Below are positions 6,696-37,022 of a stretch of 64,000 nt of DNA, piece after piece. Numbering within the stretch: position 1 is the stretch's first letter; every line of letters starts with the position of its first letter. The position numbers were made by a program, and so were the translations under genes. Origin of the DNA: Methanoregulaceae archaeon (GTDB lineage: Bacteria; Armatimonadota; Fimbriimonadia; Fimbriimonadales; Fimbriimonadaceae); assembly GCA_020850325.1 (NCBI GenBank), contig JADZEW010000001.1:62001-126000 (forward strand), written 5' to 3'. Below the pieces are notes generated by a model, which had not been told where the DNA came from, searched no databases, and saw only the letters and a list, made by a program, of their open reading frames with translations.

Positions 6696-6723
6696 ATTCT
6701 CCGCCGGCACAGGAATGGTTTAC
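6696..6723 (-). promoter_or_regulatory. Motif copy A: GTAAAC-N18-GAAT (putative ECF-type promoter)
   Basis: Minus strand TTGTAAACCATTCCTGTGCCGGCGGAGAATC, upstream of the AAA+ gene, just after the ThiF-like stop. Confidence 0.6.
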
Positions 6724-6738
6724 AAGGACTAGAAGATT

Positions 6739-7791
6739 CTATAGACCCTCGTCTGCGAAGCCATATACCGAGCAGAAGCAGTCTCGGATCAGCCCCGTGG
6801 GAACACTTGACTGACGGATCTCACCGTCTTCGTACACACACCGGATGGCTGTCGATCGAAGCAATCGGCCCGCGACAAGTTCCTCAATCGATCGCAATGC
6901 CCAACTGACGGCCATCATGTTGATGCTTCGGAGACTGCCTAGCCGACCACGCCCAAACTCGCGGCTTTCGTCTGCGATCTGCGCTGTTCTCCGATCGAGT
7001 CCCATCGTGCAAGCTAAGCACCGATCTCCGGGCAAGGAGACGGCGCCCTCAAAGCCGATCAAGGGCTCTTCAGCCGTCCCGAAAACGCCTGTCCCGATCG
7101 AGAGTGTTGGAACGAGGTAACGGCTGCCGATTGCGGCAATGGCTCGACGAGCTCGAGCAGAATCACACGCGGCGACGATAATGTCACAGTCAAGAAACTG
7201 GCTAAACGTGCTGAAGCCTTGGATGTCCCCTTGGATCGTTGTGACACGAACTTCTGGGTTGAGCTCACGGGCGAGCCGGCCGATCACGTCTACCTTTGGC
7301 CTTCCAAAGTCTATGAGTGCGATGGGTTCCGGCCACCGACTTGAATCTGTAGGCCCAAGGATGTCTGGGTCCGCCAGCACCAACTCACACACGCCCTCCA
7401 TAGCCAGGGCCGTTGCGAGATTCGAGCCTAGTCCTCCGACTCCGGCGATACCAACTCGCAGCCGACTCAGCTTCGACCAAGGAAGCAAGCCCAAACCTCC
7501 GGCTTGGCGGCTCCGCTCAACACCAACGAGAACAGGTTCAACTACCGTCCAATCAGGAACAAGAGCGATCTCACCGACCTCCGGACCATCCGGAAGCTGA
7601 ACCTTTAATGGCGCACCATCGCTGCCCAGCACAAAGTTTGCAGGCTGACCGTCCGCCGACGGCGTAAGGACAAGGAGGTCACCGAGCGGAGTGCGGGTGA
7701 CTCCCCGCCGCCACAAGGACGGCGGGGAGGTCAGGAACGACAAGGCGGGAACTCGAACTCGCATCGCAGTCATCTCAGTGCTGAGTGGCAA
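6739..7791 (-). CDS. ThiF/E1-like adenylyltransferase fold protein
   Basis: 'LRVGIAGVGGLGSNLATALAMEGVCELVLADPD' Rossmann nucleotide-binding motif, 'CDIIVAACDSARARRAI', 'CLAC'; true start may be downstream of 7791 because a hairpin lies at 7703-7727. Confidence 0.85.
   Translation of the reverse strand: MPLSTEMTAMRVRVPALSFLTSPPSLWRRGVTRTPLGDLLVLTPSADGQPANFVLGSDGAPLKVQLPDGPEVGEIALVPDWTVVEPVLVGVERSRQAGGLGLLPWSKLSRLRVGIAGVGGLGSNLATALAMEGVCELVLADPDILGPTDSSRWPEPIALIDFGRPKVDVIGRLARELNPEVRVTTIQGDIQGFSTFSQFLDCDIIVAACDSARARRAIAAIGSRYLVPTLSIGTGVFGTAEEPLIGFEGAVSLPGDRCLACTMGLDRRTAQIADESREFGRGRLGSLRSINMMAVSWALRSIEELVAGRLLRSTAIRCVYEDGEIRQSSVPTGLIRDCFCSVYGFADEGL
7703..7727 (-). terminator. Hairpin ccccgccg-N9-cggcgggg downstream of small-protein gene copy 1
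   Basis: 8-bp stem, 48 nt after the stop of the small gene; similar hairpins at 15028-15052 and 24855-24880; no U-tract. Confidence 0.4.
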
Positions 7792-8032
7792 GAGTCTGGA
7801 GTCCGACTACAAACTCGTGCACATCAAGCGTCGTCACCTGCTCCCTTCGCGAAACGAGCGGCAAGGTGATGGCGCGGTCAAGCCACTGATCGAACGACGC
7901 TTCGCTCCGACAGATCGCGGCACACACGTAGTCGATGCCGAAACGGTCTGCCAACCTCTCAAGCGCACCCTTTCGAGCAGCGTTCACTCGCCCCAGATAT
8001 TCGAGAGCATACAACCAAAGATCACGGTTCAT
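7775..8032 (-). CDS. Small helical protein family, copy 1 (unknown; adaptor-like)
   Basis: RBS AAGGAGG before ATG; 'MNRDLWLYALEYLGRVNAARKGALERLADRFGIDYVCAAICRSEASFDQWLDRAITLPLVSRRE' paralogous to 15091-15363. Confidence 0.75.
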   Translation of the reverse strand: MNRDLWLYALEYLGRVNAARKGALERLADRFGIDYVCAAICRSEASFDQWLDRAITLPLVSRREQVTTLDVHEFVVGLQTLATQH

Positions 8033-8077
8033 CTTTCCTCCTTCGATTCCCCTCATTTGCATGCGGGGTGTTAGGAG

Positions 8078-8105
8078 GTACACGGGACCGGGCTGTTTGG
8101 TTTAC
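8078..8105 (-). promoter_or_regulatory. Motif copy B: GTAAAC-N18-GTA(C)
   Basis: Minus strand TTGTAAACCAAACAGCCCGGTCCCGTGTACC, 46 nt before small-gene ATG; one mismatch in the downstream box. Confidence 0.5.
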
Positions 8106-8385
8106 AAGGCCCGCAGAAAACTCGCAGAACGGCAAGCAAGTCGCCCGCGATAGTGAGCATGTTCGGAGCCGCTGACCGCCCCGAAGGCAGGTCCGCCGAC
8201 CCAGTATCATCAGGTTCAGGGCCTTATGCCATCCTAGCTACTTGGCACCTTATACCGGCAACATTCTCGGCCGCAGAACCCTATCGCCTCTCAGAGCAAA
8301 GCCCCCTCGTGAATAGTCCATTTGTGGAACCCTCCACGCTACTGGGTCAGCGCACACCCCATTCCGAATGCAGTATCACGTACCC

Positions 8386-11300
8386 TCAAGTGCAACCCGT
8401 TCCCGCCGGCACGTATTCATAGATAAAGGGTCCCTCACCTTCCTTAAACACAGCAATGAGCCGCGACACTTCCTCTTCGGCAAGAACGACTGACGGCGCA
8501 CCAATCCAGTCAAGTACCACTGGCGCCTGATTCGAAGAAATACGCATTAGATACCCAAAGCTGGTATAGCACACCCCATTTAGGCTCAACTCCGGATACT
8601 CTCCAAAGCTACCCACGTTCGGAAGCTCGATTCTACCAGTCATCCGACCGCAACCGTCGAACACCGCAAGTTGTCCCTTGCTACTACCCACTGCAAGACT
8701 TCCGTCGTCCAGCACCATGCTAGAATTGATAACTCCTTCTAACTTTTTCTGCAAATGCCCTCTTTCACCGAGATCCATGGGCACGCCCATTGTGTCGAAT
8801 ATCGTTACACTGCCTTCCGAAGTCACAGATGCAACACGTCCAGCCTCAAGCGCAACAAGGCGTTGAAACAACTTGCAAGTTACACTCGGAGTTCTAGTCC
8901 TATTTGCATCAAACGGACTTCCACTCTGGTCGAACACTGCGACAACTCCCCTAGTTGTAGCAACAGCAAAACGGCCCTGTTCCAGATCGATCATCGAACA
9001 CACGCACCCTTCAACAATCGGCTCTTGCGTCCTCTTGGGCTCGACTGGGCTGCCACAGTTCTCAAAGACTGAGACCACTCCAAGGTCGGTCCCAACAGCA
9101 AACCGCTCTTGATTGATCGAGACAATCCTCGTAACCGTGCCCGCAACCCTCACTTCGCTTGCTGGCAGCCCAATAGGCTTTGCCAGTTGATCAAACACAT
9201 GAACGGAGCCTGAATCGGTAAGAATCACAAAGTGGCCCTGAGCCAGAGGACTTATCACAACAGGTCTCCCTGGGATGCTTGGATCGACAGTTTTGGATGC
9301 GTCCAATGGCAAACCATCTTTGCTAAAACCTGCAACAATGCCTTCATCTGTGCAAACAGCGAAGCACCCATTTTCAAGCGGTACTATCTTTACAACGCAT
9401 CCGACAACGCGCACCTCCCGGGATTCTGACCGTTGTAGCTGCGTGCCGTCATCTTGGAATACAGCAACAGCGCCTGTTTCCGTGCCAACTGCGAACAAGT
9501 TTGGACTGATTGGAGTCATTGACCAGATCATGCCATCTAAGCTCCTTCGATCAGACGGCACTGCTTTCTCTGACATCTTAGAGGTGTCAACCACAATGAC
9601 CATCCCCTCATCTGTGATTGCTACGACTCGCCCTAAATCTAGCGCCCCAAGCCACTGGACACCTCCTCTCACTCGCAATACTTGTTTTAGCTGGTAGTGG
9701 CTCGTCTCAGATTGACAATCGAACAACGCTACATCGCCAGATGTCGTTCCTACCACGAAGCGACGCTCGGAGATCAACTTAAGAGCCCAGATCCACCCGT
9801 CGCTTAAGTCCCAGTATCTTGTCTCATAGTTACTACCCTGTGCCCTGTTACATTTAAACACGGCGATTAGACCTAAGGAATCGCCAACTACAAAGTTCTC
9901 CTGATCGAGCAAATGTAGTTCTGATGGCCAATCACGCCAACTTGGATCTGTCGTCTTCGATTGATCAGTTGGAACTCCGTCGATATCAAAGACGGCCACC
10001 ACCCCGGAATCGGTACTAACGACGAAATGTTTCCCAGCGAGCGCAAGCATTGAACAGACCTTTCCAACAACACTTGTCGTATGCGTCTTAGCTGGATCAA
10101 CTGGTGCTCCGTCGATATCGAAGACCGCGACCACACCTTCATTCGTGCAAACGGCGAAGCGCCCATTCTCTAGCACGACGACTTCCCTGACCGCACCGTA
10201 TACACTCGCCACATGCGTCTTGGCAGTATCAACAGGCTCCCCGTCTCTATCGAAGACCGCTACGACTCCAGCATCCGTGCAAACGGCGAAGCGTCCGTTG
10301 TTGAGGGAGTTGCATTTTGGGAATGATCCTCTGACACTCACATCCTGCGTCTTAGCTTGATCAAGTGGTGCTCCGTTGTTATCGAAAACTGCCACCACGC
10401 CTTCATACGTACAGAGGACGAAGCGTTCGTTATCGATCAAGATGCATGTTGCGGGTGATCCGACAACACTCGCCTCCTGCGTCTTAGCTGGATCAACTGG
10501 TGCTCCGTCGCTATCGAAGACTGCAACCACACCTTCATTCGTACAAACTGCGAAGCGCCCATTCTCTAGCACGACGGCTTCTCTGACCGCACCGTATACA
10601 CTCGCCTCATGCGTCTTGGCAGTGTCAACAGGCTCCCCGTCTCTATCGAAGACCGCTACGACTCCAGCATCCGTGCAAACGGCGAAGCGTCCGTGAACGA
10701 GGGGTACTACAAGACCGACTTTTCCTCTTACACTCGTTTCTTGAGTCTTTGTGTAGTCAACTGGCAATCCATTGTTGTCGAATACAGCCACTACACCCGC
10801 ATCAGTGGCAACGATGAAGAAACCATGATCTAAGATAGAAAAGCAGGATGCTTCCCCTTTACATAACGCTGTGACGCGGTATTGCGGATGTGCGACTGTC
10901 CGCTCTCCACGCCGTATGACCCGTTCTTCTCTTCGAAACTCCAGCCGGCGGCGGGCCGATACAGAAACAGGCAATAGGCCGGCGTGGTTTGCGGCAAGGA
11001 TCAGTGGGCTCACGCCAACCAGCCGATGCTCAGCTGTAGCATCCAGCCAGTCGCACAATGTCTCAACTTCCTCGATTAGAGCCGCATCGGTGCTCAGGGC
11101 TCTCAGGTGCTGCATGAGCACAATGAGGTTCCGGCGTGCTCCCGATACAACAACTTCATGAACCCACCCCGACCAGAAGTCGGCGTCACCAATGATGACC
11201 CGAATCGCGTCTTGCGCCTTGGCCAAGAGAGGACAGGCCCTGTTGGGATCGACATTCATCAGACTTTGAATGTGCTCAAGGTGTCTAAGAACATGGTCCA

Positions 11301-13443
11301 TGAGGTAGCGCGCATCGTAGCGATCGACCCCGACGGCATCTTCCCAGCGATAGTGTTCATCGTTGGCTCGCTTCTGGATGTGCTTGTTCGCCTTTTCAAG
11401 CACGCACGCCTCGATGGCCGAGATCTGCTCTTGGAGACCCTCGACTTGTTCGAACGCCTCTCGAAGGGCGGGATGGCCCAGGTCGTAGACCACGGAGCGC
11501 GCCCGGGCATCGCTCTGGGTTCCAGGGTCGAGACTCAAGTCCGAAGCTCGGGTTTCCAGCACCCACCGCTGAACGGGCTCGCCTGCCTTCGCCAATGGAC
11601 CTGGTTTGAGGTTTCTTGGCAGGCGGTCCAGCCATGCCTGGTCGATCGCGCCCCGAGCCGCGACGATAGCTGGAATCCACTTCCAGCCAGCCGTTCGCTT
11701 CATTGACCGCCATTCAGCGCGGACGAGGTCAACGAGGCTCTTGGGCAAGTCCTCAACCCGCTCAAGCAGCGACCGGGACGGCTCAGTAGCGGTCTGAAGT
11801 TGGCCGAGCAAGCGGTCGGTGAAGAGCGGATAACCTTCCGTTCGGTCCCACAAAGCTTGAGTGACTGCGCCGAGTTCCACTTCGGGAAGCTCTGCGTGCT
11901 CTAGCGCTGACCCAATCCAGTGATCAAACGGGGGACGCGCGAGGTTCGCAAGCGAGTAGTAGTGGCAAGGACGCGGGTGGGAATTGGGACCCACGATGGG
12001 GACAATCGGCAGTCGCTCAGCAACCTGGGAACCTGTTCCCCGCACGCCCAGAAGCACGGTGACTTGCTTCGATATCTCCCAAGTCCAGATACCTTGAGGA
12101 TCCACGGACGCCTCGTCCACGCCGTCGATGACGACCACGATCCGCTTGCCTTCATAATCGCGGACGAAGTCTCTGAGCGTTGTAGACTCCTCGCCAATCC
12201 CCTCAGCATGGAGCTGCGCGAGAAGAGCCTGATGGATACGATCCCAATCAGAAGTGGCCGGCTCGCGCTGACTAATGTTGAAGCGAGCGACGGCAGCGTC
12301 GCCCCAGTCGTGGTTCACGAGTTCACCGATGAAGCTGGACTTGCCGACACCTGCTGGGCCGTGAACGACGATAAGCCCACCCGACCCCTGCTCGCGCACG
12401 AGGCATTGGACGTTTTCGACATCCTCTTCTCGACCAAACACCTTTCGGCAGCGTCCCGCTTGCACACGCAAAGAGGATTTGTAGGCAGCCTCGATCTGGG
12501 GGTCAGTGCTGAGAACCGGAGGCGGCACTGGATTCGTCGCTAACCTCCACGCCTCATCACGCGAACTGAACAGCTTGCACTTCTTGGTGTCAACGTTGTC
12601 GGGAAGCCGGTCGGCGAGGTAGTGCCTGGCCATTATGCCCTGTGACCAATCCGTAAATGCTTCGTGCTTAGCAGTTACCTCTGCGACCGACTCGGTCTCT
12701 CCCTTTACGATCGCCCCAGTTGCGCAAACAGTATGTAGGTCAGCGGGATGATGTTCATAGAAAGCGCGAAATGCGAGAAAGGCTGCCACCCCGACCGAAG
12801 GTCCATCCACCCACGCCGTTGCATCGGGAAAATGATCGGGTTTCCATACACTCTCCAGCGACCAAGCAACTCCTTCAGGTCCTGCGTCTCCGAGCGGCTT
12901 TGCAGCTTGACATGCTTCCTTGAGTGCTTCAAGAAAGCTTCGGCCGACATGGGTGCTCAGCAATGAGTGAGGGTTGTCGGGATGGTTGACTAATGGAGCC
13001 ATCACCACGACACCGGGAGTATCGGGCAGTGCGTAGAGTTTGAGCCGGAGGATTGCCGCCTGTGAGTTTGCGAACACGACCGGAAAGTGAATACTGACGC
13101 TTGGACGCTGAATTTGGTCGGTCAGAGCCGCCAACCACGCTGATTTTCGGGCGACGGGTTCGTCCCCAAGCTGTACGGGGAGATCGACCTTCTCCGCCAA
13201 AGCGGCCGCGAGTGTCACCGCTCTGGCCTCAGCTTCGATATCGACAGGCAGGCTCTGTCTTGCGTTCAAGACTTGGTAGGCACGCTCACTCGCCAACGAA
13301 ATGCAATGCTGCAACCAAGGGTAGTTCCCATGTTGCCCAAGAGGCACGTCAAAGCCAAACATCGGCAACTTGACCAGATTTTCCAGGGTCTGTCCACCCT
13401 CGACGGGCGCCAGCACTTTCTCAAGCCACTCTTTCGGCCTCAT
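8386..13443 (-). CDS. Lon-like (S16) protease domain + STAND-type NTPase + C-terminal beta-propeller repeat protein
   Basis: 'VDGPSVGVAAFLAFRAFYEHH..CATGAIVKG..SVAEVTAKHEAF..LPDNVDTKKCKLFSSRDEAWRLA' matches the Lon C-terminal protease layout (Ser and Lys retained); Walker A 'VVHGPAGVGKSSF'; 'RIVVVIDGVDEAS'; then ~43-aa repeats 'NGRFAVCTDAGVVAVFDRDGEPVDTAKTH'. ORF begins 13500 but ATG at 13443 (MRPKEWLEKVLAP) matches the paralog start. Confidence 0.8.
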   Translation of the reverse strand: MRPKEWLEKVLAPVEGGQTLENLVKLPMFGFDVPLGQHGNYPWLQHCISLASERAYQVLNARQSLPVDIEAEARAVTLAAALAEKVDLPVQLGDEPVARKSAWLAALTDQIQRPSVSIHFPVVFANSQAAILRLKLYALPDTPGVVVMAPLVNHPDNPHSLLSTHVGRSFLEALKEACQAAKPLGDAGPEGVAWSLESVWKPDHFPDATAWVDGPSVGVAAFLAFRAFYEHHPADLHTVCATGAIVKGETESVAEVTAKHEAFTDWSQGIMARHYLADRLPDNVDTKKCKLFSSRDEAWRLATNPVPPPVLSTDPQIEAAYKSSLRVQAGRCRKVFGREEDVENVQCLVREQGSGGLIVVHGPAGVGKSSFIGELVNHDWGDAAVARFNISQREPATSDWDRIHQALLAQLHAEGIGEESTTLRDFVRDYEGKRIVVVIDGVDEASVDPQGIWTWEISKQVTVLLGVRGTGSQVAERLPIVPIVGPNSHPRPCHYYSLANLARPPFDHWIGSALEHAELPEVELGAVTQALWDRTEGYPLFTDRLLGQLQTATEPSRSLLERVEDLPKSLVDLVRAEWRSMKRTAGWKWIPAIVAARGAIDQAWLDRLPRNLKPGPLAKAGEPVQRWVLETRASDLSLDPGTQSDARARSVVYDLGHPALREAFEQVEGLQEQISAIEACVLEKANKHIQKRANDEHYRWEDAVGVDRYDARYLMDHVLRHLEHIQSLMNVDPNRACPLLAKAQDAIRVIIGDADFWSGWVHEVVVSGARRNLIVLMQHLRALSTDAALIEEVETLCDWLDATAEHRLVGVSPLILAANHAGLLPVSVSARRRLEFRREERVIRRGERTVAHPQYRVTALCKGEASCFSILDHGFFIVATDAGVVAVFDNNGLPVDYTKTQETSVRGKVGLVVPLVHGRFAVCTDAGVVAVFDRDGEPVDTAKTHEASVYGAVREAVVLENGRFAVCTNEGVVAVFDSDGAPVDPAKTQEASVVGSPATCILIDNERFVLCTYEGVVAVFDNNGAPLDQAKTQDVSVRGSFPKCNSLNNGRFAVCTDAGVVAVFDRDGEPVDTAKTHVASVYGAVREVVVLENGRFAVCTNEGVVAVFDIDGAPVDPAKTHTTSVVGKVCSMLALAGKHFVVSTDSGVVAVFDIDGVPTDQSKTTDPSWRDWPSELHLLDQENFVVGDSLGLIAVFKCNRAQGSNYETRYWDLSDGWIWALKLISERRFVVGTTSGDVALFDCQSETSHYQLKQVLRVRGGVQWLGALDLGRVVAITDEGMVIVVDTSKMSEKAVPSDRRSLDGMIWSMTPISPNLFAVGTETGAVAVFQDDGTQLQRSESREVRVVGCVVKIVPLENGCFAVCTDEGIVAGFSKDGLPLDASKTVDPSIPGRPVVISPLAQGHFVILTDSGSVHVFDQLAKPIGLPASEVRVAGTVTRIVSINQERFAVGTDLGVVSVFENCGSPVEPKRTQEPIVEGCVCSMIDLEQGRFAVATTRGVVAVFDQSGSPFDANRTRTPSVTCKLFQRLVALEAGRVASVTSEGSVTIFDTMGVPMDLGERGHLQKKLEGVINSSMVLDDGSLAVGSSKGQLAVFDGCGRMTGRIELPNVGSFGEYPELSLNGVCYTSFGYLMRISSNQAPVVLDWIGAPSVVLAEEEVSRLIAVFKEGEGPFIYEYVPAGTGCT
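8400..10890 (-). repeat. Coding ~129-bp propeller repeats, some nearly identical at DNA level
   Basis: For example ~10160-10300 and ~10560-10696 differ at only a few positions over ~140 bp. Confidence 0.85.
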
Positions 13444-13457
13444 CTTTGATGCCCTTT

Positions 13458-13742
13458 CTACCAGAATATCCGCCGCCCCGGAGAGCCATTCCAAGCACAC
13501 TCACCCACAACTGGGCATCGTTTCGCATGCTCCCCGCCTTGTTCAATCATCGCGACGACTCCCTGACTGGTTCCAACTGGAAAGCATTGCCGTGACTGCA
13601 CCGTACGCGCTAGGCATGTACACTGGCTTTGAGGCAGAGGCTTGCCTCGAGCGACAAACACCCCGACGATTCTGTGGCTCGACCCAACCGCGGAGCCATC
13701 GCCAAACGGAACCATGGTCCCGACCCAACCTTCCACGCTAGG
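13458..13742 (-). pseudogene. Frameshifted beta-propeller repeat remnant
   Basis: Two reading frames carry fragments: 'EGWVGTMVPFGDGSAVGSS' then 'YGAVTAMLSSWNQSGS' / 'FPVGTSQGVVAMIEQGG', matching repeats of the adjacent propeller gene. Confidence 0.7.
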
Positions 13743-15005
13743 CTATTCCGTTTGGTCCTGCGCCAAATGCTGGTGATCGGCACCAAACGCCTCGACGAGT
13801 CCCTCACTGGTCCCAATCGCGAAGCCACCGCCAAGCGCGACCATTGAGGTGACCTCACCATGCAGGCGACACATGCTTCCCGCCAAAGGCTGGCCAACTT
13901 TTCCAAACGCCTCAACGTATCCCTCACTGGTCCCAATCGCGAAGCCATCGGCAATCGCCACCATTGAGGTGACCCAACTTTCTACGCTGGGTTCGTGCGT
14001 TTTGGCACCAGGCAGCGGCTGACCATCAGCACTAAACAGCGCGACGACACCATGGCTCGTTCCAACAGCAAAGCTATCGCCCAGTGGTAGCATCGCCGTG
14101 ACCCAACCTTCCACGCTGGGTGTATGCGTTTTGGCACCAGGGACCGGCCGGCCATCGGCACCAAACAACACGACGATTCCCTCGGTTGTACCAACCACAA
14201 ATCCACTGCCAAACGGGCGCATCGCGTTGACCGCACCGTACACGCTACCCTCGTACGTTTGGCTTGTCGGCAAGGGCTGCCCATCAGCACCAAACAGCGC
14301 GACGACACCATGGCTCGTTCCAACAGCAAAGCTATCGCCCAGTGGTAGCATCGCCGTTACCGCTCCTTCCACGCTGGGAGCGAGCGTGATGCTCCCTGCA
14401 AGAGGCTGGCCACCTGCACCAAACGACGCGACGATTCCCTCGCTTGTTCCTACCGCAAAGCCATCGCGAAACGGGATACTCGCCTTGACAATACCTCCAA
14501 CGGTATGTTCGTACGTATGACTTAACGGCTGACTGTTAGCACCGAACACAACGACGCCTCCATTGCTCACCGCCACCACGAACCCATCGCCAAACGGAAC
14601 CATCGCGTAGGCCCAACCTTTCACGCTGGGTTCATGGACTTGGCTTCCCGGCAGAGGCTGGCCATCAGATCCGAACGTCGCGACAACTCCCTTGCTTGTC
14701 CCAACGGCAAAACCGACGCCAAGAGGGATCATCGCGATGATCTCACCCTTCACAGCATCATGTCTTGATGAGGAAACCTCTTCGCCTTCGTCATCGAGAA
14801 TGCAGGTCTCACCCAGATCGGTCCCGACTGCACATCCGCCCCCTTTCAAGGTGACGAAATGCTTGACCCGACCTCGAAAAACCGCGGTCGTTCGATAACG
14901 CAGCACCAGGCGCTGGACGTTAGCCTCATCTGCCTCGCGACCAAACTCCGTCTGACCGCCCTCGACAGGCGCAAGCATTTTCTCGAGCCATTCCTTCTTC
15001 TTCAT
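13743..15005 (-). CDS. Propeller-only paralog lacking Lon-like and NTPase domains
   Basis: N-term 'MKKKEWLEKMLAPVEGGQT' equals start of the large protein, then jumps to 'EFGREADEANVQRLVLRY' (large protein 'VFGREEDVENVQCLVRE'), then ~42-aa repeats 'GDSFAVGTSHGVVALFGADGQPLP'. Confidence 0.8.
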   Translation of the reverse strand: MKKKEWLEKMLAPVEGGQTEFGREADEANVQRLVLRYRTTAVFRGRVKHFVTLKGGGCAVGTDLGETCILDDEGEEVSSSRHDAVKGEIIAMIPLGVGFAVGTSKGVVATFGSDGQPLPGSQVHEPSVKGWAYAMVPFGDGFVVAVSNGGVVVFGANSQPLSHTYEHTVGGIVKASIPFRDGFAVGTSEGIVASFGAGGQPLAGSITLAPSVEGAVTAMLPLGDSFAVGTSHGVVALFGADGQPLPTSQTYEGSVYGAVNAMRPFGSGFVVGTTEGIVVLFGADGRPVPGAKTHTPSVEGWVTAMLPLGDSFAVGTSHGVVALFSADGQPLPGAKTHEPSVESWVTSMVAIADGFAIGTSEGYVEAFGKVGQPLAGSMCRLHGEVTSMVALGGGFAIGTSEGLVEAFGADHQHLAQDQTE

Positions 15006-15027
15006 CTTTCATACCAACTCTACCGGT

Positions 15028-15052
15028 CCCCGCCACCCGAAGAGCGACGGGG
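15028..15052 (-). terminator. Hairpin downstream of small-protein gene copy 2
   Basis: ccccgccacccgaagagcgacgggg; related to hairpin at 7703-7727; no U-tract. Confidence 0.35.
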
Positions 15053-15090
15053 GATACGATAGGCGGAGTGTTTCCAGCTCGGCAGGGCCG

Positions 15091-15363
15091 TCACACCTGA
15101 GCAGCCAATGTCGCGAGGCCCGTGGCGAACTCGCGCTTACTTACCATCGGATACTTCTTGCGCGAGACCAGGGCAAGCGTCATCGCACGATCCAACCAGA
15201 CATCGAACGACTTCTCCGACTGGGTGCACACTGCCGCGCACACCCAGTCGGCTCCAAACCGATCGACCAGTCTCTGCAGGATGCCCAAACGGTGGGCCTG
15301 CTTCGCCTCGAACACGCGACAGATCGATTCCCATCGCGCCTCACTAATTGTCTTCCTCTTCAT
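15091..15363 (-). CDS. Small helical protein family, copy 2
   Basis: 'MKRKTISEARWESICRVFEAKQAHRLGILQRLVDRFGADWVCAAVCTQSEKSFDVWLDRAMTLALVSRKK'; GGAGG RBS; paralog of 7775-8032. Confidence 0.75.
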   Translation of the reverse strand: MKRKTISEARWESICRVFEAKQAHRLGILQRLVDRFGADWVCAAVCTQSEKSFDVWLDRAMTLALVSRKKYPMVSKREFATGLATLAAQV

Positions 15364-15404
15364 CGAGTCCTCCAAACTTCGCCCTCTGCGGGGGCGTATA
15401 GGGG

Positions 15405-15432
15405 ATTCAAAGATTCGGTTCAAGTGGTTTAC
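15405..15432 (-). promoter_or_regulatory. Motif copy C: GTAAAC-N18-GAAT
   Basis: Minus strand CTGTAAACCACTTGAACCGAATCTTTGAATC, 42 nt before ATG of small gene copy 2. Confidence 0.6.
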
Positions 15433-15716
15433 AGGGTGGTGAGCAACTTACTGTACTTCGGCAACGCCTTCGAAGATGCAGGTCTCACCCCAAGAGACGC
15501 GGGCCGCACATCCGACCCTTTCAAGGCAACGAAGTGGTCAACCTGACTTCGAAGAACCGTCGTCATATGACAAGGTAGGCGATACACTTTGAGATTGGGC
15601 GGACAACTCGGGTCGCGCTCTCGTCGCCTTCCGCCCGTAGCGACTGGGCAATCCCGGTCGGTAACTACCGAACGGCCGCCCAGATTCACGGTAGACGACC
15701 TTGACGGAGCGAGCAT
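15429..15716 (-). pseudogene. Third, truncated copy of the 'EWLEKMLAP..propeller' gene N-terminus
   Basis: DNA around 15480-15600 aligns by eye to 14790-14900 (gcaggtctcaccc.., ccctttcaaggcaacgaa..acctgacttcgaagaaccgtcgt); upstream 'MLAP' start retained at ~15716. Confidence 0.7.
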
Positions 15717-15756
15717 TTCAACGCACCCATCTCTATCCTGGTGGGGCCACTGAACC

Positions 15757-18732: not shown

Positions 18733-18741
18733 GATCGCCGG

Positions 18742-21636
18742 TCAGGATCCCCCTGCGACCAGGCGCGCCATCCCCTTTCCGACAACCGAAAACGGAGCCC
18801 AGTAGTAGGGAGAGCGAAACCGGGGATCGCCGGCGACAGCCTGACGACCAAACCTGGCGGCCCGCGCTACTGTCATGCCCGAAAGGAGGCAGCAGTGGAA
18901 CTCTGTCATGAAGATGAAGGCCGCCTCATCATGGATGGGCCAAAGAGTTGCTACGACGCACTCGGCCCCCGCTGAAAGGTAAGCCCCAGCGGCGGCCAAA
19001 GGTGCCCCATGAACAAACGTCGTCTGGAACGTGCTGCAACCAGACAGCACGACAACCTTCGCCTTCAACTGAGCGAGGTGTACCTCCTTCGTCAAGAGTA
19101 GGTTCAGCCCACCGTCGCGGTCTTCAGCAAAGACCGTGTAGCTGTGGTGCGACAATTGGGCCCTTGCCTCGCCTGCCACAAAGGTCCAGCTCGTGCGGTC
19201 CTGACATCTGCGGTCGCCGAGCCGAATGCCACTCGGCTGTTCATGGTGACTCGCGAAGTGAATGATATCCGCCAACGGCAACTCCATTCGGATGCGTCGG
19301 ATCGTTTGCTCTTGCGGCCGGAGATGGACCGCGCCGTCTCCATAGATTTTTGCAACCCATTCCGCCTCCGCCTCGGCTAGCGGTAGGGGTTGAAGACGGT
19401 CCTCGGGCGGGCGATGCCACAGCATAGGGTCAATCGTGTCGGGGCTCATGTGGGAAAAGTCCGAGACGCCTGCGACAAGCGCCCGTATGGCGGACTCGAC
19501 CGGCGGACTAGGCTCGAGGTCGAATCCTCCCGGTGAGAGGTACAAGTCACGCGAAAGCCCGAGGGCCTCTCCCGTCTCCAAGTCGCGCAGCGCGTTGTAG
19601 GGAACGTCCCACCACTCTTTCTCCGGGGCGACCACGAGGTTCCCTCCTTGCGGCACTAGCTGATGCAGAGCAGTGTCCGGGCAGAGGTATTTACACACCC
19701 TCTGGCCCCACAGGTCCCACCAACCGTCTGGCGCCTTGAGGTCCTCTGGACCCAGGGCGCTTGATCCAACCATCGCGTGCTGCCACGGCGAGTAGATCTC
19801 CGCAGCTACCTCGGGCGATCTCCCGGGGAACCCAAACATCTGCACGTCGGTGGCGGTCACATAACGATGCATGGCTTCGCCAGTTGGGCAAAGATCGAGC
19901 AGGACAGAGCCCTTGTGGCGTTGCACCAATGTTCGCAGGGCAAGGCTCCGTTGGTGCGTCAGCTTGAGGATTTCTGATCGGAGCTGAATCGCCTCCCCTG
20001 GCACCATAGGCTCGCTCCTCAGGTAAGGCAGGACGCTCTCTACGAAAGAGCGTAGCGTCCGGACGAGCCGCTCATCTCCGATCATGAGCCCCCAGTTTTT
20101 AGCTAACTGCTGCAGAAACTGCTTGGTTCCTGGATGCGCGGACATGGTGACCACCCAGTTTTGGAGCGCCTGTTCGACTTCGACCGCGTGCTCGACCTGA
20201 GTAAGGCGGTTCCGAGACAGCGCAAACCGGGCGAGGCGGAGAACCAGGATCCGCATCCATTGGGCCTGTTTCGTCTCAGGATCTGTCTCATCGAGCGTCA
20301 GGAGGAGCTCAAGGTAATCCGCGGCCGCAAGGTCCCACATTCTCAGTCTATGAATCTCCTGGGACTGCGATCGCTGCAAAAGCTGGGCCTGCGCCTCGCC
20401 AATCGGACTACCCTCAAGACGTCCTTTCGTCACCCGAATAAGCTGATCATAAAGACTGTCTTTTTCATTTAGAAGCGCTCGTTCCAAAGTGTCCAGGACA
20501 AGGAGTGCCCGTGCCCTTTGCCTTGGCTGCCATGTCTCCTGTTCTCGGTGAGGAAGGGCCAGTGTCCGCTTCGCCTCACGGAAAAGGCGAATCAAACCGA
20601 ACATGGAAGAGATTCGACCCGGCGGCAACTCACGCTCCACGTCGAAGGTCGGGGTCAAGCCCCAAGTTCCAATAGTGGTGCACCACATCGATGCTTCGAA
20701 GGTGAGCATTTCGACTATCTCAGTTCCGGCGGGGCTGCTCATGTCCGGACTGTAGCCTTTGGCCATGCTCCTCAACTGCCGAAACAACAGCTCATCCCCA
20801 GATCCTGCGGCCCGGACCATGAGCATCACCATTCTAGCGACTCCGCGATCGACTCCAGCGGTGGCCAAATGTTCCTCAAAATAGGGGTGCCATCGACAAT
20901 AGGGGTCGAAGACATACTCTGGCTGCGCATAGACCCGGCCGCCCTCCCCATCCGACACGGCGACGGGTAGGGGCGCCCTGACGAGAAGAGAGCGATGGAT
21001 CGTAAGGAGCGACCAGATCTTTTGGTGAGAGGTGATCTCCGGACGCAGAGCGTCCAGAACAAGACCGGACGCATCCACCGATGCTGGCCACCGATCAGGA
21101 GCCTCATCTATCGCGGCGTCACAAAGTTTCTGAAACACCAACTCAAGGCGGTCGATGTCACGGATGTCAGGGTAGTCCGGAAACTTGGTCACGAACTCCC
21201 TCAGCTCAATGAATGCGTCCTCCGACGAAAAGTCGACTAGTCCGGACTGGCCTGCGATCGCAGCGAGGAGAACGTCACCGGGGGAAGCCTGAAGAAGGCC
21301 AGCACTTACGGGTGGCATCTCATGCTGCGTACCCTGCATCATCTCGGCACTTAGCAGCGCCGCCACAAGATCATCACAGTCACCCCTGACAATCTCTTGC
21401 GTGATCTCGATGGTAAGTCTCCGCAACGGGTCAGCCAAGTGCTTCTTGCTCCGAAGCGCCTCAAACGCACTCGCGTCGCCCTGCGTTTCCGGTACCAATC
21501 CTCCTATTAGGGTTAAGAGATTGACTGCGCGCGCGAGGACGGCAGGGTCACTCGTCGCCATGACAGGACCCAGCACAGCCTTAACCAATGGGTTCCGCTT
21601 CATGACGCGAAGTAAGCTCTCTTCCACTGGAATCAC
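18742..21636 (-). CDS. CHAT-domain protease, paralog 2
   Basis: C-term 'ADIIHFASHHEQ' ... 'AKVVVLSGCSTFQTTFVHGAPLAAAGAYLSAGAECVVATLWPIHDEA'; N-term block 'SPGDVLLAAIAGQSGL' shared with paralog 1. Confidence 0.88.
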   Translation of the reverse strand: MIPVEESLLRVMKRNPLVKAVLGPVMATSDPAVLARAVNLLTLIGGLVPETQGDASAFEALRSKKHLADPLRRLTIEITQEIVRGDCDDLVAALLSAEMMQGTQHEMPPVSAGLLQASPGDVLLAAIAGQSGLVDFSSEDAFIELREFVTKFPDYPDIRDIDRLELVFQKLCDAAIDEAPDRWPASVDASGLVLDALRPEITSHQKIWSLLTIHRSLLVRAPLPVAVSDGEGGRVYAQPEYVFDPYCRWHPYFEEHLATAGVDRGVARMVMLMVRAAGSGDELLFRQLRSMAKGYSPDMSSPAGTEIVEMLTFEASMWCTTIGTWGLTPTFDVERELPPGRISSMFGLIRLFREAKRTLALPHREQETWQPRQRARALLVLDTLERALLNEKDSLYDQLIRVTKGRLEGSPIGEAQAQLLQRSQSQEIHRLRMWDLAAADYLELLLTLDETDPETKQAQWMRILVLRLARFALSRNRLTQVEHAVEVEQALQNWVVTMSAHPGTKQFLQQLAKNWGLMIGDERLVRTLRSFVESVLPYLRSEPMVPGEAIQLRSEILKLTHQRSLALRTLVQRHKGSVLLDLCPTGEAMHRYVTATDVQMFGFPGRSPEVAAEIYSPWQHAMVGSSALGPEDLKAPDGWWDLWGQRVCKYLCPDTALHQLVPQGGNLVVAPEKEWWDVPYNALRDLETGEALGLSRDLYLSPGGFDLEPSPPVESAIRALVAGVSDFSHMSPDTIDPMLWHRPPEDRLQPLPLAEAEAEWVAKIYGDGAVHLRPQEQTIRRIRMELPLADIIHFASHHEQPSGIRLGDRRCQDRTSWTFVAGEARAQLSHHSYTVFAEDRDGGLNLLLTKEVHLAQLKAKVVVLSGCSTFQTTFVHGAPLAAAGAYLSAGAECVVATLWPIHDEAAFIFMTEFHCCLLSGMTVARAARFGRQAVAGDPRFRSPYYWAPFSVVGKGMARLVAGGS

Positions 21637-21959
21637 TCTGTCGATTCGGTCAGGAGGCGGTGGACCAGCCGCAAACGCTCCCTTAGGCTTTGTACTGACT
21701 CATCCAGTCCCGCAAAGTCCCCTAGCCGCCTGTCGACAGCTACCTGGACACTCACAAGCGCCCACTCGGGCAGGACCAACTTAGCGCAGATCTTAGAGAG
21801 CGCTTCCTTGAACTCTTGCTCCGCGTGGCTCGCGCCGCGCGAGGCACTCTCGCCGTTTGCCACTTGGTTTGCGTGGAGGAGTGTTACAAGGCTATCGATC
21901 TCCTCTTCCATGCACGCGATTTCTTTCAAGACGTCGGGGTTAATAGCCAATGAACACAC
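21633..21959 (-). CDS. Small hypothetical protein between the 442-aa gene and the CHAT genes
   Basis: ORF overlapping both neighbours by 4 and 20 nt, consistent with translational coupling. Confidence 0.6.
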   Translation of the reverse strand: MCSLAINPDVLKEIACMEEEIDSLVTLLHANQVANGESASRGASHAEQEFKEALSKICAKLVLPEWALVSVQVAVDRRLGDFAGLDESVQSLRERLRLVHRLLTESTE

Positions 21960-23268
21960 TCCTTAAGGTCTTAACATCTTGTATGAAGTCCAATAGCTCG
22001 AAGTTCGCCCCTTGTGCGGACTGTGCCCGGCTCATTAACAGATCACCCGCGGGTAGATCGCCGAGCCGCCAAGCTAAGCACGCGCCTACGGCGTCACAGA
22101 AGATCTGCGCAGGAGGGAACTTGAGAGCTACCTTATCGCTGAGCGCCCGGGCCCGAATGTATGATCGCTCTGCCGCGCCCAGATCGCCTGCCCGAAGGGC
22201 GGCAAGGCTGTCGGTGGCGAGGAGCCAAGCGGCCAGATCGACCTGCCCTGGCTCTAGCTTGGCCAGCAAGCGCGACAGCTCGTCCCGGACGTGGCTGAGA
22301 GCGGTCATCGCACCAAGCAACTTGCAGATTGCCCTCGCTTCTCCAATCGCGGGACGAGGATCCTTAGCCCACAGGAACGGAACCCCGATCTGGGGCACAG
22401 CCGTAGCTCTCATCCCACCGCGTTGTGCATGCCCGGCAAAAGCAGCACCCGAGGCCTCGATCGCAGCAAGAATCCCGGGGGCGATTATCTCGAGCAACAC
22501 ATCGACTGGGATCGGTGGTGTGCCCGCGAACTCCTCCGCAACGCCGCTAAGCTCCGTCTCCTCATACTGATCTACATAGTACTCGTGGCCCGGTTGAACC
22601 CCAAATCCCACGACGACTGATTCGCCGGTAACGTGAACGGATACCTCGTCAACCTCTTTGCCTTCACACTCGACCTTGACAACCGTGCCAGCATCTGCTC
22701 GAAACGTCAGTTCAAGGTACCAACCCGTGGCTTCTGCAAAAACGTCAGAATGTTGGAGCCGTCCATGGTCGATCACAATGCCAATCGAACCCAAACCGAG
22801 CTTGCCTTCGAGACCAATCTCCATTGCTTGCGAGTCCTTGGCCGCCGCAGCAGCAGCAGCACCCATGGGAATAGGTTGCGCCAGGCGCGACACGAGCTCA
22901 CCGATTCCGAGTTGAAGGCAGTAAGTTGCGTAGACGACAAACCCGTGCCAGTTTTTCAGATAACGGGCGAGTCTCTTCTGGTCATCGGCGCCGAGAGAAG
23001 GAGCCAAAGCTAAGGACGCCTGCAAACCAGCTTCAGCTGCAGATGTGAGCCTAACGTAATCTTCGGGGAGTGGATCGAGGTCAACCCCTTCGAGATTCGC
23101 GATTCGCTCGACGAGCTGATCGTCCATGATCTCGTTGATGACTTCAACCAGGAACGGATCGTCGCCCTTCATGTAGGCCCGAAGATCGTCGTCACTCACC
23201 TCATTCATAAGGTGAATCGTCTTTTGGACCTTCAGTTCTTGTTCATTAGTTAGTTTGATGTGCTTCAC
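21940..23268 (-). CDS. Hypothetical 442-aa protein, candidate sigma regulator (position only)
   Basis: Overlaps sigma gene stop by 4 nt; helical N-term, Ala run 'MGAAAAAAAKD', beta-rich middle, helical repeat-like C-term. Confidence 0.7.
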   Translation of the reverse strand: MKHIKLTNEQELKVQKTIHLMNEVSDDDLRAYMKGDDPFLVEVINEIMDDQLVERIANLEGVDLDPLPEDYVRLTSAAEAGLQASLALAPSLGADDQKRLARYLKNWHGFVVYATYCLQLGIGELVSRLAQPIPMGAAAAAAAKDSQAMEIGLEGKLGLGSIGIVIDHGRLQHSDVFAEATGWYLELTFRADAGTVVKVECEGKEVDEVSVHVTGESVVVGFGVQPGHEYYVDQYEETELSGVAEEFAGTPPIPVDVLLEIIAPGILAAIEASGAAFAGHAQRGGMRATAVPQIGVPFLWAKDPRPAIGEARAICKLLGAMTALSHVRDELSRLLAKLEPGQVDLAAWLLATDSLAALRAGDLGAAERSYIRARALSDKVALKFPPAQIFCDAVGACLAWRLGDLPAGDLLMSRAQSAQGANFELLDFIQDVKTLRSVFIGY

Positions 23269-24311
23269 TTGCTGTTCCTCTTTCCGCCCTTGAAACTATG
23301 AGAGACATCTGTCCGCTTTACCTTGATTCGAGCCTGTGAGACCATTTTTTTGACAGTCGGTTGAGGTCGACTCAAAATTGTCGACGCTTCCACAAGACTG
23401 AGTCCTACAACCTCAACCAATACCCAAGCCCGAAACTGGGGCTTGTTCTCGATCGCTCTGCGCGCATGCCGAACCTTGACTCGTGCCTTAGCAGACGCAT
23501 GTTGAACGATTCGCGCCCGATCAGACGTACGTTCAACGCCTCCAAACGGACGATCCACCCATAACTCTCCAATAGACTCCACTCCAAACGCTACTTCCTC
23601 ACCCAGCCGTCTCTGTACGTTGTCCGGAAGTCCCTGCAAGCTGTTCAAAGCCCAAGCGCTGAACTCGAACTTCTGTTCCATTGCGGCACGTATCTTCTGG
23701 CGAGCGCGATGCAACCAGGACTTTATAGTCCCCTTGTCGCGGTTCAACTTGATTGCGGCCTCATGTTCAGTGAGGTCCTCGACATCGCGAAGCACCCAGA
23801 CGGCGAACTCAGGGGGCGTAAGAACCCGCTCGGCCGTAGCGACGATTGCGCAAACTTGATCCTGCGTTTCCAAATCTGCGAACAGATTCAGCGACTCTGA
23901 GTCTGCTATCTCAGGCGCACCCTCGTCTTCGATCGAACGCGTCGGCATGCGTCCGGGGGCAGCATCTTGGTCCACTTTGTGCCACCAACCCAACCGATCG
24001 TCCCACTCGAACGACCCCTTCAATCTTGGTTTGGACTTGCGACACTTGTTTCTCGCGATCGCAAACACCCACGTCGAGAACTTGTAAGCGGGATCGAACC
24101 GCTTCAAGAATTGGAACGCTGCGACCTTCGTTTCTTGATAAGCGTCCTCCGCGTCAACCACATTTTCCATGGAACGGCAGCAGAACCTGTAGGTTTGTTT
24201 GTCCACCGTACTCCACAATGTGTCAAACGCTGGTCGATCCCCCTTCTGGGCGCTAATGACGAGTGCTTGGACAGTTACTGGGTCAAGTCCGCCTGCTTGC
24301 TGATCGATCAT
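23265..24311 (-). CDS. ECF-like RNA polymerase sigma factor with two region-4-like HTHs
   Basis: Region 2 'DAEDAYQETKVAAFQFLKRFDPAYKFSTWVFAIARNKCR'; region 4 'LTEHEAAIKLNRDKGTIKSWLHRARQKIR'; second HTH-like 'LSLVEASTILSRPQPTVKKMVSQARIKVKR'; RBS GGAGGAAGG. Confidence 0.88.
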   Translation of the reverse strand: MIDQQAGGLDPVTVQALVISAQKGDRPAFDTLWSTVDKQTYRFCCRSMENVVDAEDAYQETKVAAFQFLKRFDPAYKFSTWVFAIARNKCRKSKPRLKGSFEWDDRLGWWHKVDQDAAPGRMPTRSIEDEGAPEIADSESLNLFADLETQDQVCAIVATAERVLTPPEFAVWVLRDVEDLTEHEAAIKLNRDKGTIKSWLHRARQKIRAAMEQKFEFSAWALNSLQGLPDNVQRRLGEEVAFGVESIGELWVDRPFGGVERTSDRARIVQHASAKARVKVRHARRAIENKPQFRAWVLVEVVGLSLVEASTILSRPQPTVKKMVSQARIKVKRTDVSHSFKGGKRNSK

Positions 24312-24430
24312 CGTCCTTCCTCCATACTAACCTCTACCACTTGATCGGCCATCCACCGCCTCGCGAAACTCCTCTCTGCGTCTCGGTTTTCCAATCCTGA
24401 CGGCTACGACTCATGTTTGGTTCGCAGCCT

Positions 24431-24463
24431 GCCGGTCTCGCGCAGCCAACATGCAAGACCGGC
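24431..24463 (-). terminator. Hairpin gccggtct..agaccggc downstream of degraded small gene
   Basis: 8-bp perfect stem, ~50 nt past the end of the small-gene remnant; no U-tract. Confidence 0.35.
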
Positions 24464-24512
24464 GGTGGACCCGAACGCTAAGGCACTCTACCAGCGCCTC
24501 CGGGCCAGCGAA

Positions 24513-24729
24513 TTACTTCACCGGGTCGACCATCTGAGATGTGGATCGTCCAACCAATGGCATCGTAATCGTCCCATCGATCCACGCCTCGAAGGACGCC
24601 CCTCATAACAAACGGTGGCGACGGTGTAGTGGCCACCGAATCGCTCTCCAGACGTTCGATCACGGCCAACCTCTTCGGCTGGCGGCGAGCCAAGAACTCC
24701 TTCAAGTGGGTCCAAAGATCAGTGTGCAT
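24513..24729 (-). pseudogene. Small helical protein family, copy 3, degraded across three frames
   Basis: Frame 1 'MHTDLWTHLKEFLARRQPKRLAVIERL', frame 2 'RFGGHYTVATVCYEG', frame 3 'SFEAWIDGTITMPLVGRSTSQMVDPVK*' together reconstruct the family pattern. Confidence 0.75.
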
Positions 24730-24778
24730 CCGTTCCTCCTGTGGTCTCGACACCTCGATTGCGGTGCCGTACAGTCTA

Positions 24779-24806
24779 GTTCTCATCAGGCTCGAGAAAA
24801 GTTTAC
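24779..24806 (-). promoter_or_regulatory. Motif copy D: GTAAAC-N18-GAAC
   Basis: Minus strand CGTAAACTTTTCTCGAGCCTGATGAGAAC, upstream of degraded small gene and, further on, the sigma gene. Confidence 0.55.
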
Positions 24807-24854
24807 GGGCCAGCTCATATTCTTTGGAGACTTCTTGGCGTCTCAATGAGAGAG

Positions 24855-24880
24855 GCCCGCCTCCACCGAGGACGGCGGGC
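24855..24880 (-). terminator. Hairpin gcccgcc..ggcgggc after 49-aa ORF
   Basis: 7-bp stem; sequence related to 7703-7727 hairpin (CCGCCGTCCT..GTGG.GGCGGG). Confidence 0.4.
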
Positions 24881-24919
24881 TCTTCGGGTGCTGCACGGGC
24901 GGGGTTCGCTTGGGGAAGT

Positions 24920-25069
24920 TCAGTCAGCCAGGAATCGCTGGCGCTCGAGCTCTTCTTGGCGTCGACGGTCCCGACGCTTGCGACGAGCCAACTCCTCGCG
25001 GACGGCTTGAAGTCCTTGGGGCTTGACCGTCTCGGTCGGATGTTGGTTAACGATCATCGGCTGCTTCAT
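24920..25069 (-). CDS. Small basic/charged 49-aa protein
   Basis: 'MKQPMIVNQHPTETVKPQGLQAVREELARRKRRDRRRQEELERQRFLAD'; GGGAG RBS; preceded by motif copy E. Confidence 0.5.
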   Translation of the reverse strand: MKQPMIVNQHPTETVKPQGLQAVREELARRKRRDRRRQEELERQRFLAD

Positions 25070-25103
25070 TGGATTTCTCCCTGCGCATCGCGCATGTAGA
25101 TCC

Positions 25104-25131
25104 ATTCGCAAAGCAGCCGCCTACGGTTTAC
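25104..25131 (-). promoter_or_regulatory. Motif copy E: GTAAAC-N18-GAAT
   Basis: Minus strand CGTAAACCGTAGGCGGCTGCTTTGCGAATGG, 35 nt before ATG of 49-aa ORF. Confidence 0.6.
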
Positions 25132-25395
25132 GAGCTCGGCGCAGGGTTGCGGAACTTGTCCAAGAACGGTCCGGTCGAGTCTTTGAATCGTCCACCAACA
25201 ATCTTGGCACCCATAAGCCGACTCATACCACACAAGACGACCCGACTCGCGTCTTATCGGCCTCCTCTCTGCCTGATCACGGTTGGATCTGTACCGGATC
25301 CTCAAAATAGCTTCCGTCGAGCAGGCACCGTCATGCACGTGATGGCGTCTGCGAGACCCCACATTGGAACTTCCTCTTCGTTCTTCGCCGCTAAC

Positions 25396-25423
25396 GTAAA
25401 CCAACGGCGTCGGCGGTGAGAAC
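25396..25423 (+). promoter_or_regulatory. Motif copy F: GTAAAC-N18-GAAC
   Basis: CGTAAACCAACGGCGTCGGCGGTGAGAAC, 8 nt before ATG at 25432. Confidence 0.6.
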
Positions 25424-25431
25424 AAGGGAGC

Positions 25432-26037
25432 ATGATGATCACAATCGATGCTCCCTTCGACATCAAGGCTACGACCCACATCACGGCTATGGGGGCACTG
25501 GCCATCGAGTTGCGCTCCGAGCGCGCAGAACTCATCGACGCCGTCGGATTGCTCTTTCGGAAAGAAGGAACAGACTGGTGCTTCATCGGGGAAGTGCGCC
25601 TGAGCGGGAATCCTGTGGCCGCGCAGTTGTACAACTACCGCTCCACGAGCCTCCGCCTTGAAATTGTCCAAACCACCATTCGACGTTGCCGATCCACTCT
25701 GGCTACTGACTGCCCAGAGGAAGTCAGCCAGTTGGCTCTTCGACTTGGCGCCGACCACCCCTTCTGGGGTCATTTGCTTGATCGATTCGGAAGTGCGGGC
25801 CCCGAGTACCTTTGCCGGATTCTTCGCCGTTCTCACATCGCTCTCCGCTCGCAGGCCGAGATCCTGGCTCTGATCGAGCTTAAGTTGGCACGTGAAGCTA
25901 TGCCCGAGGAACTCCGTGGCCGGGACGACCTCGTTACGTCGACGGACGCACGGATCGAGATGGCAGCCCTCGCGATTGAGTTCACGAGTGACCTTCGTCA
26001 CGACAACCTGTGCCCTCAGCAAAAGAAATCTGCCTAG
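25432..26037 (+). CDS. Hypothetical 201-aa protein
   Basis: ORF directly preceded by motif F and AAGGGAG; no recognised domain. Confidence 0.6.
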   Translation: MMITIDAPFDIKATTHITAMGALAIELRSERAELIDAVGLLFRKEGTDWCFIGEVRLSGNPVAAQLYNYRSTSLRLEIVQTTIRRCRSTLATDCPEEVSQLALRLGADHPFWGHLLDRFGSAGPEYLCRILRRSHIALRSQAEILALIELKLAREAMPEELRGRDDLVTSTDARIEMAALAIEFTSDLRHDNLCPQQKKSA

Positions 26038-26039
26038 CC

Positions 26040-26067
26040 GTAAACCGATTCGAGGCCCGAGGAGAAC
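26040..26067 (+). promoter_or_regulatory. Motif copy G: GTAAAC-N18-GAAC
   Basis: CGTAAACCGATTCGAGGCCCGAGGAGAAC, 8 nt before ATG at 26076. Confidence 0.6.
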
Positions 26068-26075
26068 AACCAATC

Positions 26076-26168
26076 ATGGAGATTCGCCGCAAAACGTTCA
26101 CTAGCATCACCAAGACTACGACCGCCGTTCCAGACGTGGTTCGGACAGCGAAGCAAGCTTCGAACTGA
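26076..26168 (+). CDS. Putative 30-aa peptide
   Basis: MEIRRKTFTSITKTTTAVPDVVRTAKQASN*, same motif-to-ATG spacing as copy F. Confidence 0.35.
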   Translation: MEIRRKTFTSITKTTTAVPDVVRTAKQASN

Positions 26169-26197
26169 TCCGCTACGCGGCAGCATGGAGGAAGAGC

Positions 26198-26269
26198 ATG
26201 AAGAAGACAACTCATAAACCGTGGCCTGAGCCGGTGCTGGACGCCCGCAAAAGGTTCAAAGGACGATAG
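26198..26269 (+). CDS. Putative 23-aa peptide
   Basis: MKKTTHKPWPEPVLDARKRFKGR* with GGAGGAAGAGC RBS, followed by hairpin. Confidence 0.35.
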   Translation: MKKTTHKPWPEPVLDARKRFKGR

Positions 26270-26275
26270 AGACGA

Positions 26276-26299
26276 TGCCCCCAGAGCACAATGGGGGCA
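26276..26299 (+). terminator. Hairpin tgccccc..gggggca
   Basis: 7-bp stem directly after the 23-aa ORF. Confidence 0.4.
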
Positions 26300-26390
26300 G
26301 ATCTTTCAGAAAAGCCGGCCATCTGCCAAGGACTTCACTGGCAACATCGAGTAAGGTTCATCAGGTACGAACCGTCGTATCGATCAGAGT

Positions 26391-29747: not shown

Positions 29748-29753
29748 CCGAAC

Positions 29754-35176: not shown

Positions 35177-35234
35177 CTGGTGGTCTTGGCGGCTAGGGCG
35201 GGCATTTGTAGCATCTGCCCGATGAGACCAATGG

Positions 35235-36251: not shown

Positions 36252-36268
36252 GGGTGTTATGCTACCGG

Positions 36269-36974: not shown

Positions 36975-37022
36975 TGATTTGTAAACAGCGGGTCGCGGGT
37001 TCGAATCCTGTCACCGGCTCCA
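36975..37022 (+). other. 3' fragment of tRNA-Thr(TGT): probable att site marking island right end
   Basis: tgatttgtaaacagcgggtcgcgggttcgaatcctgtcaccggctcca: anticodon arm, T arm, acceptor and CCA; no D arm or 5' acceptor upstream. Confidence 0.8.

Follow-up and report, generated by a model that had tools for sequence, protein, structure and literature searches.

Seven copies of a bipartite promoter-like motif in a tRNA-Thr integrative element: a putative regulon of the element's own ECF sigma factor

Gene order has led to the prediction of bacterial conflict systems that combine caspase-like proteases with ECF sigma factor genes, with CASP as the worked example. The CASP-sigma factor has predicted target promoters within the locus that encodes it; Csx30 inhibits this factor and is cleaved by the CHAT protease Csx29 (PMC10028731). 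ECF54 genes have CHAT or subtilase genes nearby, and regulation by proteolysis was proposed for them (PMC8999054). ECF sigma factors demand fixed spacing between promoter boxes, and one studied ECF promoter is composed of GGAACA, 17 bp and GTT (PMC6411747). Here, we describe an island in which an ECF sigma gene and CHAT protease genes are accompanied by seven copies of a bipartite motif.

The window is the whole 64,000-nt stretch of DNA that was analysed, and coordinates refer to it unless the contig is named. A tRNA-Thr gene and an adjoining tyrosine integrase gene (PF00589) are located 2.3 kb to the left of the window, and the 3′ end of the tRNA recurs far to the right:

36979–37027, plus strand: direct repeat of the tRNA-Thr 3′ end, putative right edge of the element

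A tyrosine integrase beside a tRNA gene, with the tRNA 3′ end repeated at the far edge, is the arrangement of a tRNA-integrative element. From the repeat we infer the edges of an approximately 39-kb element at tRNA-Thr(tgt), extending over contig positions 59698–99027, which correspond to window positions 1–37027 plus the 2.3 kb to the left. A clean empty site for it was not found in the sister genome (same genus). The element carries a D5-like primase, a resolvase, a conflict cluster and a type I restriction system. The restriction and nuclease genes at 26391–36805 adjoin the conflict cluster and comprise type I restriction genes, an AAA gene, a 273-aa gene downstream of the latter, and genes for an Mrr-type endonuclease and a VRR-NUC protein.

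The initial annotation had reported GTAAAC, followed after 18 nt by GAA[CT], at six places in the conflict cluster, and a divergent seventh copy. A pattern scan of the 64-kb window recovered all six exact sites at those coordinates and strands, and the seventh reads GTAAAC-N18-GTAC, as had been described. The copies are listed below, with distances counted from the second box:

6696–6723, minus strand: copy 1, GTAAAC at 6718–6723 and GAAT at 6696–6699; precedes the genes for the AAA ATPase and the coupling-protein-like ATPase; candidate starts GTG at 26 nt or ATG at 50 nt
8078–8105, minus strand: copy 2, with GTAC as second box; precedes ORF-C and the ThiF/E1 gene; SD GAAGGAGG, ATG at 45 nt
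15405–15432, minus strand: copy 3, before ORF-B, the beta-propeller gene and the STAND/beta-propeller gene; SD GGAGG, ATG at 41 nt
24779–24806, minus strand: copy 4, in an autoregulatory position ahead of ORF-A and the ECF sigma operon; SD AGGAGG, ATG at 49 nt
25104–25131, minus strand: copy 5, before a 49-aa ORF; SD GGGAG, ATG at 34 nt
25396–25423, plus strand: copy 6, before a 201-aa ORF; ATG at 8 nt
26040–26067, plus strand: copy 7, ahead of two ORFs of 30 and 23 aa; ATG at 8 nt

Dinucleotide-preserving shuffles of the 64-kb window gave an expectation of 0.10 for GTAAAC-N18-GAA[CT], compared with the six occurrences observed. Among the 15 GTAAAC hexamers in the window, the second box is present in 7/7 of those between 6.6 and 26.1 kb and in 0/8 of the others (hypergeometric 1.6e-4). 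The earlier statement that hexamers elsewhere lack the second box thus stands, but the accompanying listing had omitted 36981(+), which sits inside the tRNA fragment, and some of its coordinates were a few bases off. Since the pattern was selected post hoc and millions of such dyads exist, it might be a chance pattern picked by the reader among many possibilities; therefore, the discovery was rerun without it. Every combination of a 6-mer, a gap (12–22) and a 3-mer was counted in 120-nt regions taken upstream of 23 genes. The top dyad in this blind search was GTAAAC-18-GAA, present in 5 of the 23 upstream regions, while none of 1000 shuffled sets gave any dyad a count of 5. A weight matrix was also built from the seven sites and used to scan 66.5 kb. 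The sites scored 19.9–23.1 (16.6–22.0 in leave-one-out) and the best non-site score was 13.7, within a gene. GTAAAC is identical in all seven copies, and conservation extends further: a pyrimidine precedes GTAAAC in 7/7 copies and C follows it in 6/7, G stands two positions before GAAY in 6/7 and A/T six positions after it in 7/7. The blind recovery, the gap in matrix scores and these extra conserved positions all argue against a chance pattern, which we regard as hardly credible.

The orientation of the motif agrees with that of the downstream gene in all seven copies. The initial annotation had placed every copy immediately upstream of a plausible start codon. This was borne out at five sites, in which an ATG is found 34–50 nt past the second box and 4/5 have a clear SD, and applies with a qualification at 25396 and 26040, in which the ATG lies at 8 nt. 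Such a short distance fits leaderless messages only. We propose that the seven sites would act as ECF-type −35/−10 promoters of the form Y-GTAAAC-C, 18 nt, GAAY, with transcription starting approximately 6–9 nt further, and a start 6–9 nt past the −10 would yield leaderless messages at these two sites. Three observations count against the promoter reading. The usual ECF −10 is CGTC, TCAAA and the like, which makes the GAAY of the island unusual. At 25396 an SD-like AAGGGAG abuts the second box and would precede the predicted transcription start. Of the target ORFs, the one behind 26040 has only 30 codons and the one behind 24779 is a frameshifted gene copy. In the studied GGAACA-17-GTT promoter, AAC is separated from the −10 by 18 nt, the same distance as in the island motif (PMC6411747). 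With an AAC-containing −35, a short −10, fixed spacing and an upstream, gene-oriented position, the copies are predicted from their sequence to be ECF-type promoters.

Gene order points to co-transcription inside each unit behind the motif. The unit behind 24779 contains, in order, ORF-A (frameshifted), the ECF sigma gene, genes for the 442-aa and 108-aa proteins, CHAT 2 and CHAT 1, which makes sigma the second gene behind this copy:

24478–24729, minus strand: ORF-A, a member of the ORF-B/C family with a frameshift (three-frame translation), immediately following the putative sigma-operon promoter
23265–24311, minus strand: ECF sigma factor, 348 aa; Pfam sigma2 and sigma4, plus a C-terminal extension that contains another sigma4-like copy
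21940–23268, minus strand: 442-aa orphan protein, between the sigma and CHAT genes
21633–21959, minus strand: 108-aa protein, no assigned function
18742–21636, minus strand: CHAT protease 2, 964 aa; PF12770 E 7.7e-31; His and Cys motifs ASHH and LSGC
15757–18732, minus strand: CHAT protease 1, 991 aa; PF12770 E 1.5e-29; paralogue of CHAT 2

Behind 15405 the unit comprises ORF-B, a beta-propeller protein and a STAND/beta-propeller protein; behind 8078, ORF-C and an E1-like enzyme; and behind 6696, an AAA ATPase and a coupling-protein-like ATPase. The unit behind 26040 begins with the 30-aa and 23-aa ORFs, followed by a strong hairpin (z −4.55) and then the hsdR gene; because this hairpin precedes hsdR, the restriction genes are probably outside the unit. 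The genes in question are:

15091–15363, minus strand: ORF-B, a helical protein of 90 aa whose gene opens the unit behind copy 3; AF2 pLDDT 73
13743–15005, minus strand: 420-aa beta-propeller protein, a shortened relative of the 1704-aa protein
8386–13500, minus strand: STAND/NACHT NTPase, 1704 aa; AAA_16/NB-ARC matches and many similar beta-propeller repeats
7775–8032, minus strand: ORF-C, 85 aa, paralogous to ORF-B; opens the unit behind copy 2
6739–7791, minus strand: ThiF/E1-like adenylyltransferase; PF00899 E 2.8e-22; PADLOC E1-E2
5764–6669, minus strand: AAA+ ATPase; PF00004
3807–5771, minus strand: T4SS coupling-protein-like ATPase; PF02534 E 1.1e-19
24920–25069, minus strand: 49-aa basic ORF, behind copy 5
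25432–26037, plus strand: 201-aa protein, behind copy 6; no assigned function

Copies 7 and 5 appear to drive only short messages (26068–26300, plus, and 24920–25069, minus, respectively) for peptides of 23–49 aa, with a hairpin after each. Another hairpin (24420–24475, minus; 11-bp stem, z −2.4, no U-run) lies between ORF-A and sigma and is a possible attenuator or processing site. The 420-aa gene looks like an internally deleted relative of the STAND/beta-propeller gene. In the N-terminus of the 1704-aa STAND protein a DGPSVG...K stretch recalls Lon, with a comparison score barely above that of shuffled controls. The AF2 model of ORF-B gave no significant PDB match, and ORF-B matches in three genomes were weak and were set aside, as they look like chance.

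ORF-B and ORF-C are 58% identical over 69 aa, and together with ORF-A they place three of the seven copies before one small-protein family. The copies could thus be remnants of a duplicated promoter-plus-ORF unit rather than a regulon. The other four, however, precede unrelated genes. The spacers of the seven copies bear no relation to one another, and even the three paralogous loci show no relationship in spacers or flanks, whereas GTAAAC is the same throughout. This contrast between fixed boxes and unrelated spacers appears to reflect selection on the boxes rather than mere copying; we reject recent duplication and consider remnants of this kind very unlikely as an explanation of the motif.

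A scan of the full genome (3.52 Mb), suggested by the initial annotation, returned 15 exact matches, six in the island and nine elsewhere, compared with eight for the reversed pattern. The genomic background predicts 0.10 matches in the element, in which six are seen (P 1.4e-9). Eight of the nine off-island matches fall within reading frames. The ninth precedes a 481-aa sugar-isomerase-like gene and falls within a GC-rich repeat; it was discounted as a target. The sister genome had six motif matches versus seven for the control, which is background only; relatives of the 442-aa or CHAT proteins were not found in it. Whole genomes were searched across one phylum; outside it, the searches extended to plasmids and viral contigs, and named genomes were scanned with a peptide pattern. 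Sigma, the 442-aa protein, CHAT 2 and ORF-B served as queries in 292 genomes of the phylum, and some of them in named genomes, plasmids and viral contigs; these searches gave only generic ECF and CHAT relatives and no homologous island. The presence of the motif set before the gene groups of the island and its near-absence elsewhere suggest an island with its own transcription factor, whose genes are switched on together. The local promoter set advanced by the initial annotation is therefore well supported as a prediction by the blind dyad recovery, the weight-matrix gap, the background-level counts elsewhere and in the sister genome, the orientation and the leader geometry.

The same annotation had named the ECF sigma at 23265–24311 as the likely reader of the motif. 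Sigma70_r2 (39–92), Sigma70_r4_2 (164–207) and TIGR02937 are above cut-off, and with sigma2 and sigma4 and without sigma1 and sigma3 the protein is assigned to the ECF sigma factors (group 4). A close relative was not found in 292 genomes of the phylum. Its second sigma4-like copy is 38% identical to the first over 42 aa (E 1e-7), and this helix-turn-helix may bind DNA or serve as a decoy. The evidence tying sigma to the motif is circumstantial, though consistent: the −35 is of the AAC type and the spacing is in the ECF range (PMC6411747), the motif is restricted to the element carrying the sigma gene, and a copy stands at the head of the sigma operon. A real local promoter or operator set could also be read by another protein, either another host ECF sigma or an element regulator binding two half-sites. 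The host has several further ECF sigma genes, one of them in the window at 41160–41750. A host ECF, however, should have host targets, and no convincing promoter-like copies were seen in the rest of the genome. Half-site binding agrees poorly with boxes that are not repeats of each other, with an orientation that always follows the downstream gene and with spacing equal to that of a −35/−10 pair (PMC6411747). We regard a different reader as rather unlikely. The best explanation as a whole is a private, self-reinforcing ECF regulon confined to the element and read by its ECF sigma, to which we give a probability of roughly three in four.

According to this regulon model, the element-encoded sigma would read all seven promoters, and its activation would be self-reinforcing, since one promoter heads its own operon. 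The CHAT proteases would be expressed as later genes of that operon, while each of the other promoters would start another module, i.e., STAND/beta-propeller, E1-like enzyme, AAA/coupling ATPase or small-protein messages. Both the regulon and the feedback loop are directly testable, because the target promoters can be read from the island sequence.

We also considered how such a sigma might be controlled. The two CHAT proteins share 34% identity over 988 aa, and the His and Cys motifs are kept in both, as in CHAT proteases (PF12770). An ECF sigma gene was located directly upstream of the CHAT gene on the same strand in 10 of 23 CHAT neighbourhoods of the phylum, and ECF-CHAT coupling therefore recurs. 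The gap between frames in these ten loci ranges from −126 to 882 nt, and by database labels they belong to eight genera. In 4/10 a middle gene bears (by eye) an HxxxCxxC pattern, like zinc anti-sigma factors; three of these middle proteins were examined and gave no Pfam anti-sigma match. The 442-aa protein occupies the same place as these middle genes and is a candidate sigma inhibitor by its position. It had no Pfam match, its AF2 model was uninformative, and only the protein itself was recovered among 292 genomes of the phylum. No relatedness was detected when it was compared with middle proteins from two further ECF-CHAT loci, nor was similarity to anti-sigma factors in comparisons with Pfam, one DUF1822 protein and those two middle proteins. 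A CHAT protease gate on sigma is a weaker inference, made by analogy: sigma may be held inactive, perhaps by the neighbouring 442-aa protein, until a CHAT protease is triggered, like Csx29 cleaving Csx30 to free CASP-sigma. In the fullest version, which we offer as speculative and hold to be somewhat doubtful, the doubled-sigma4 sigma would be checked by the orphan protein, STAND/beta-propeller or CHAT sensors would detect an invader, CHAT proteolysis would free sigma, and the seven promoters would fire without host regulators, as in a CRISPR-independent counterpart of Craspase.

Several described systems share parts of this arrangement. As in ECF41, the island sigma has a C-terminal extension past sigma4 and a putative local regulon with a bipartite promoter; the ECF41 extension is, however, a SnoaL-like domain and its −35 is TGTCACA (PMC3426412), in contrast to the second sigma4-like helix-turn-helix and GTAAAC of the island. 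EACC2-caspase conflict systems likewise pair a caspase-clan protease with an ECF sigma and have a third protein in the same neighbourhood, which in their case is a DUF1822 TPR protein beside the ECF gene (PMC8195603). The 442-aa protein showed neither a Pfam match to DUF1822 nor similarity to one DUF1822 protein, and no EACC2 or TRADD-N domain was identified in the island. ECF54 and the island both have an ECF gene beside CHAT genes and no recognised anti-sigma, and the accessible part of the ECF54 report makes no mention of a multi-promoter regulon of a mobile element like that proposed here (PMC8999054). Type III-E CASP/Craspase (Cas7-11, Csx29 TPR-CHAT, Csx30 and CASP-sigma; PMC10028731) and the island both combine an ECF sigma and a CHAT protease in one defence locus, with predicted sigma promoters in the same locus and positive feedback on defence genes proposed. 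As no Cas7-11-, Csx30- or Csx31-like protein was identified among the element proteins scanned, the island is not a member of CASP/Craspase, though it may be alike in outline. It differs in having seven promoter sites versus three, a sigma with a second sigma4-like domain, and STAND/beta-propeller proteins as candidate sensors in place of crRNA. That ECF genes directly precede CHAT genes at 10 of 23 loci in the phylum suggests that protease-controlled transcription extends beyond CRISPR type III-E.
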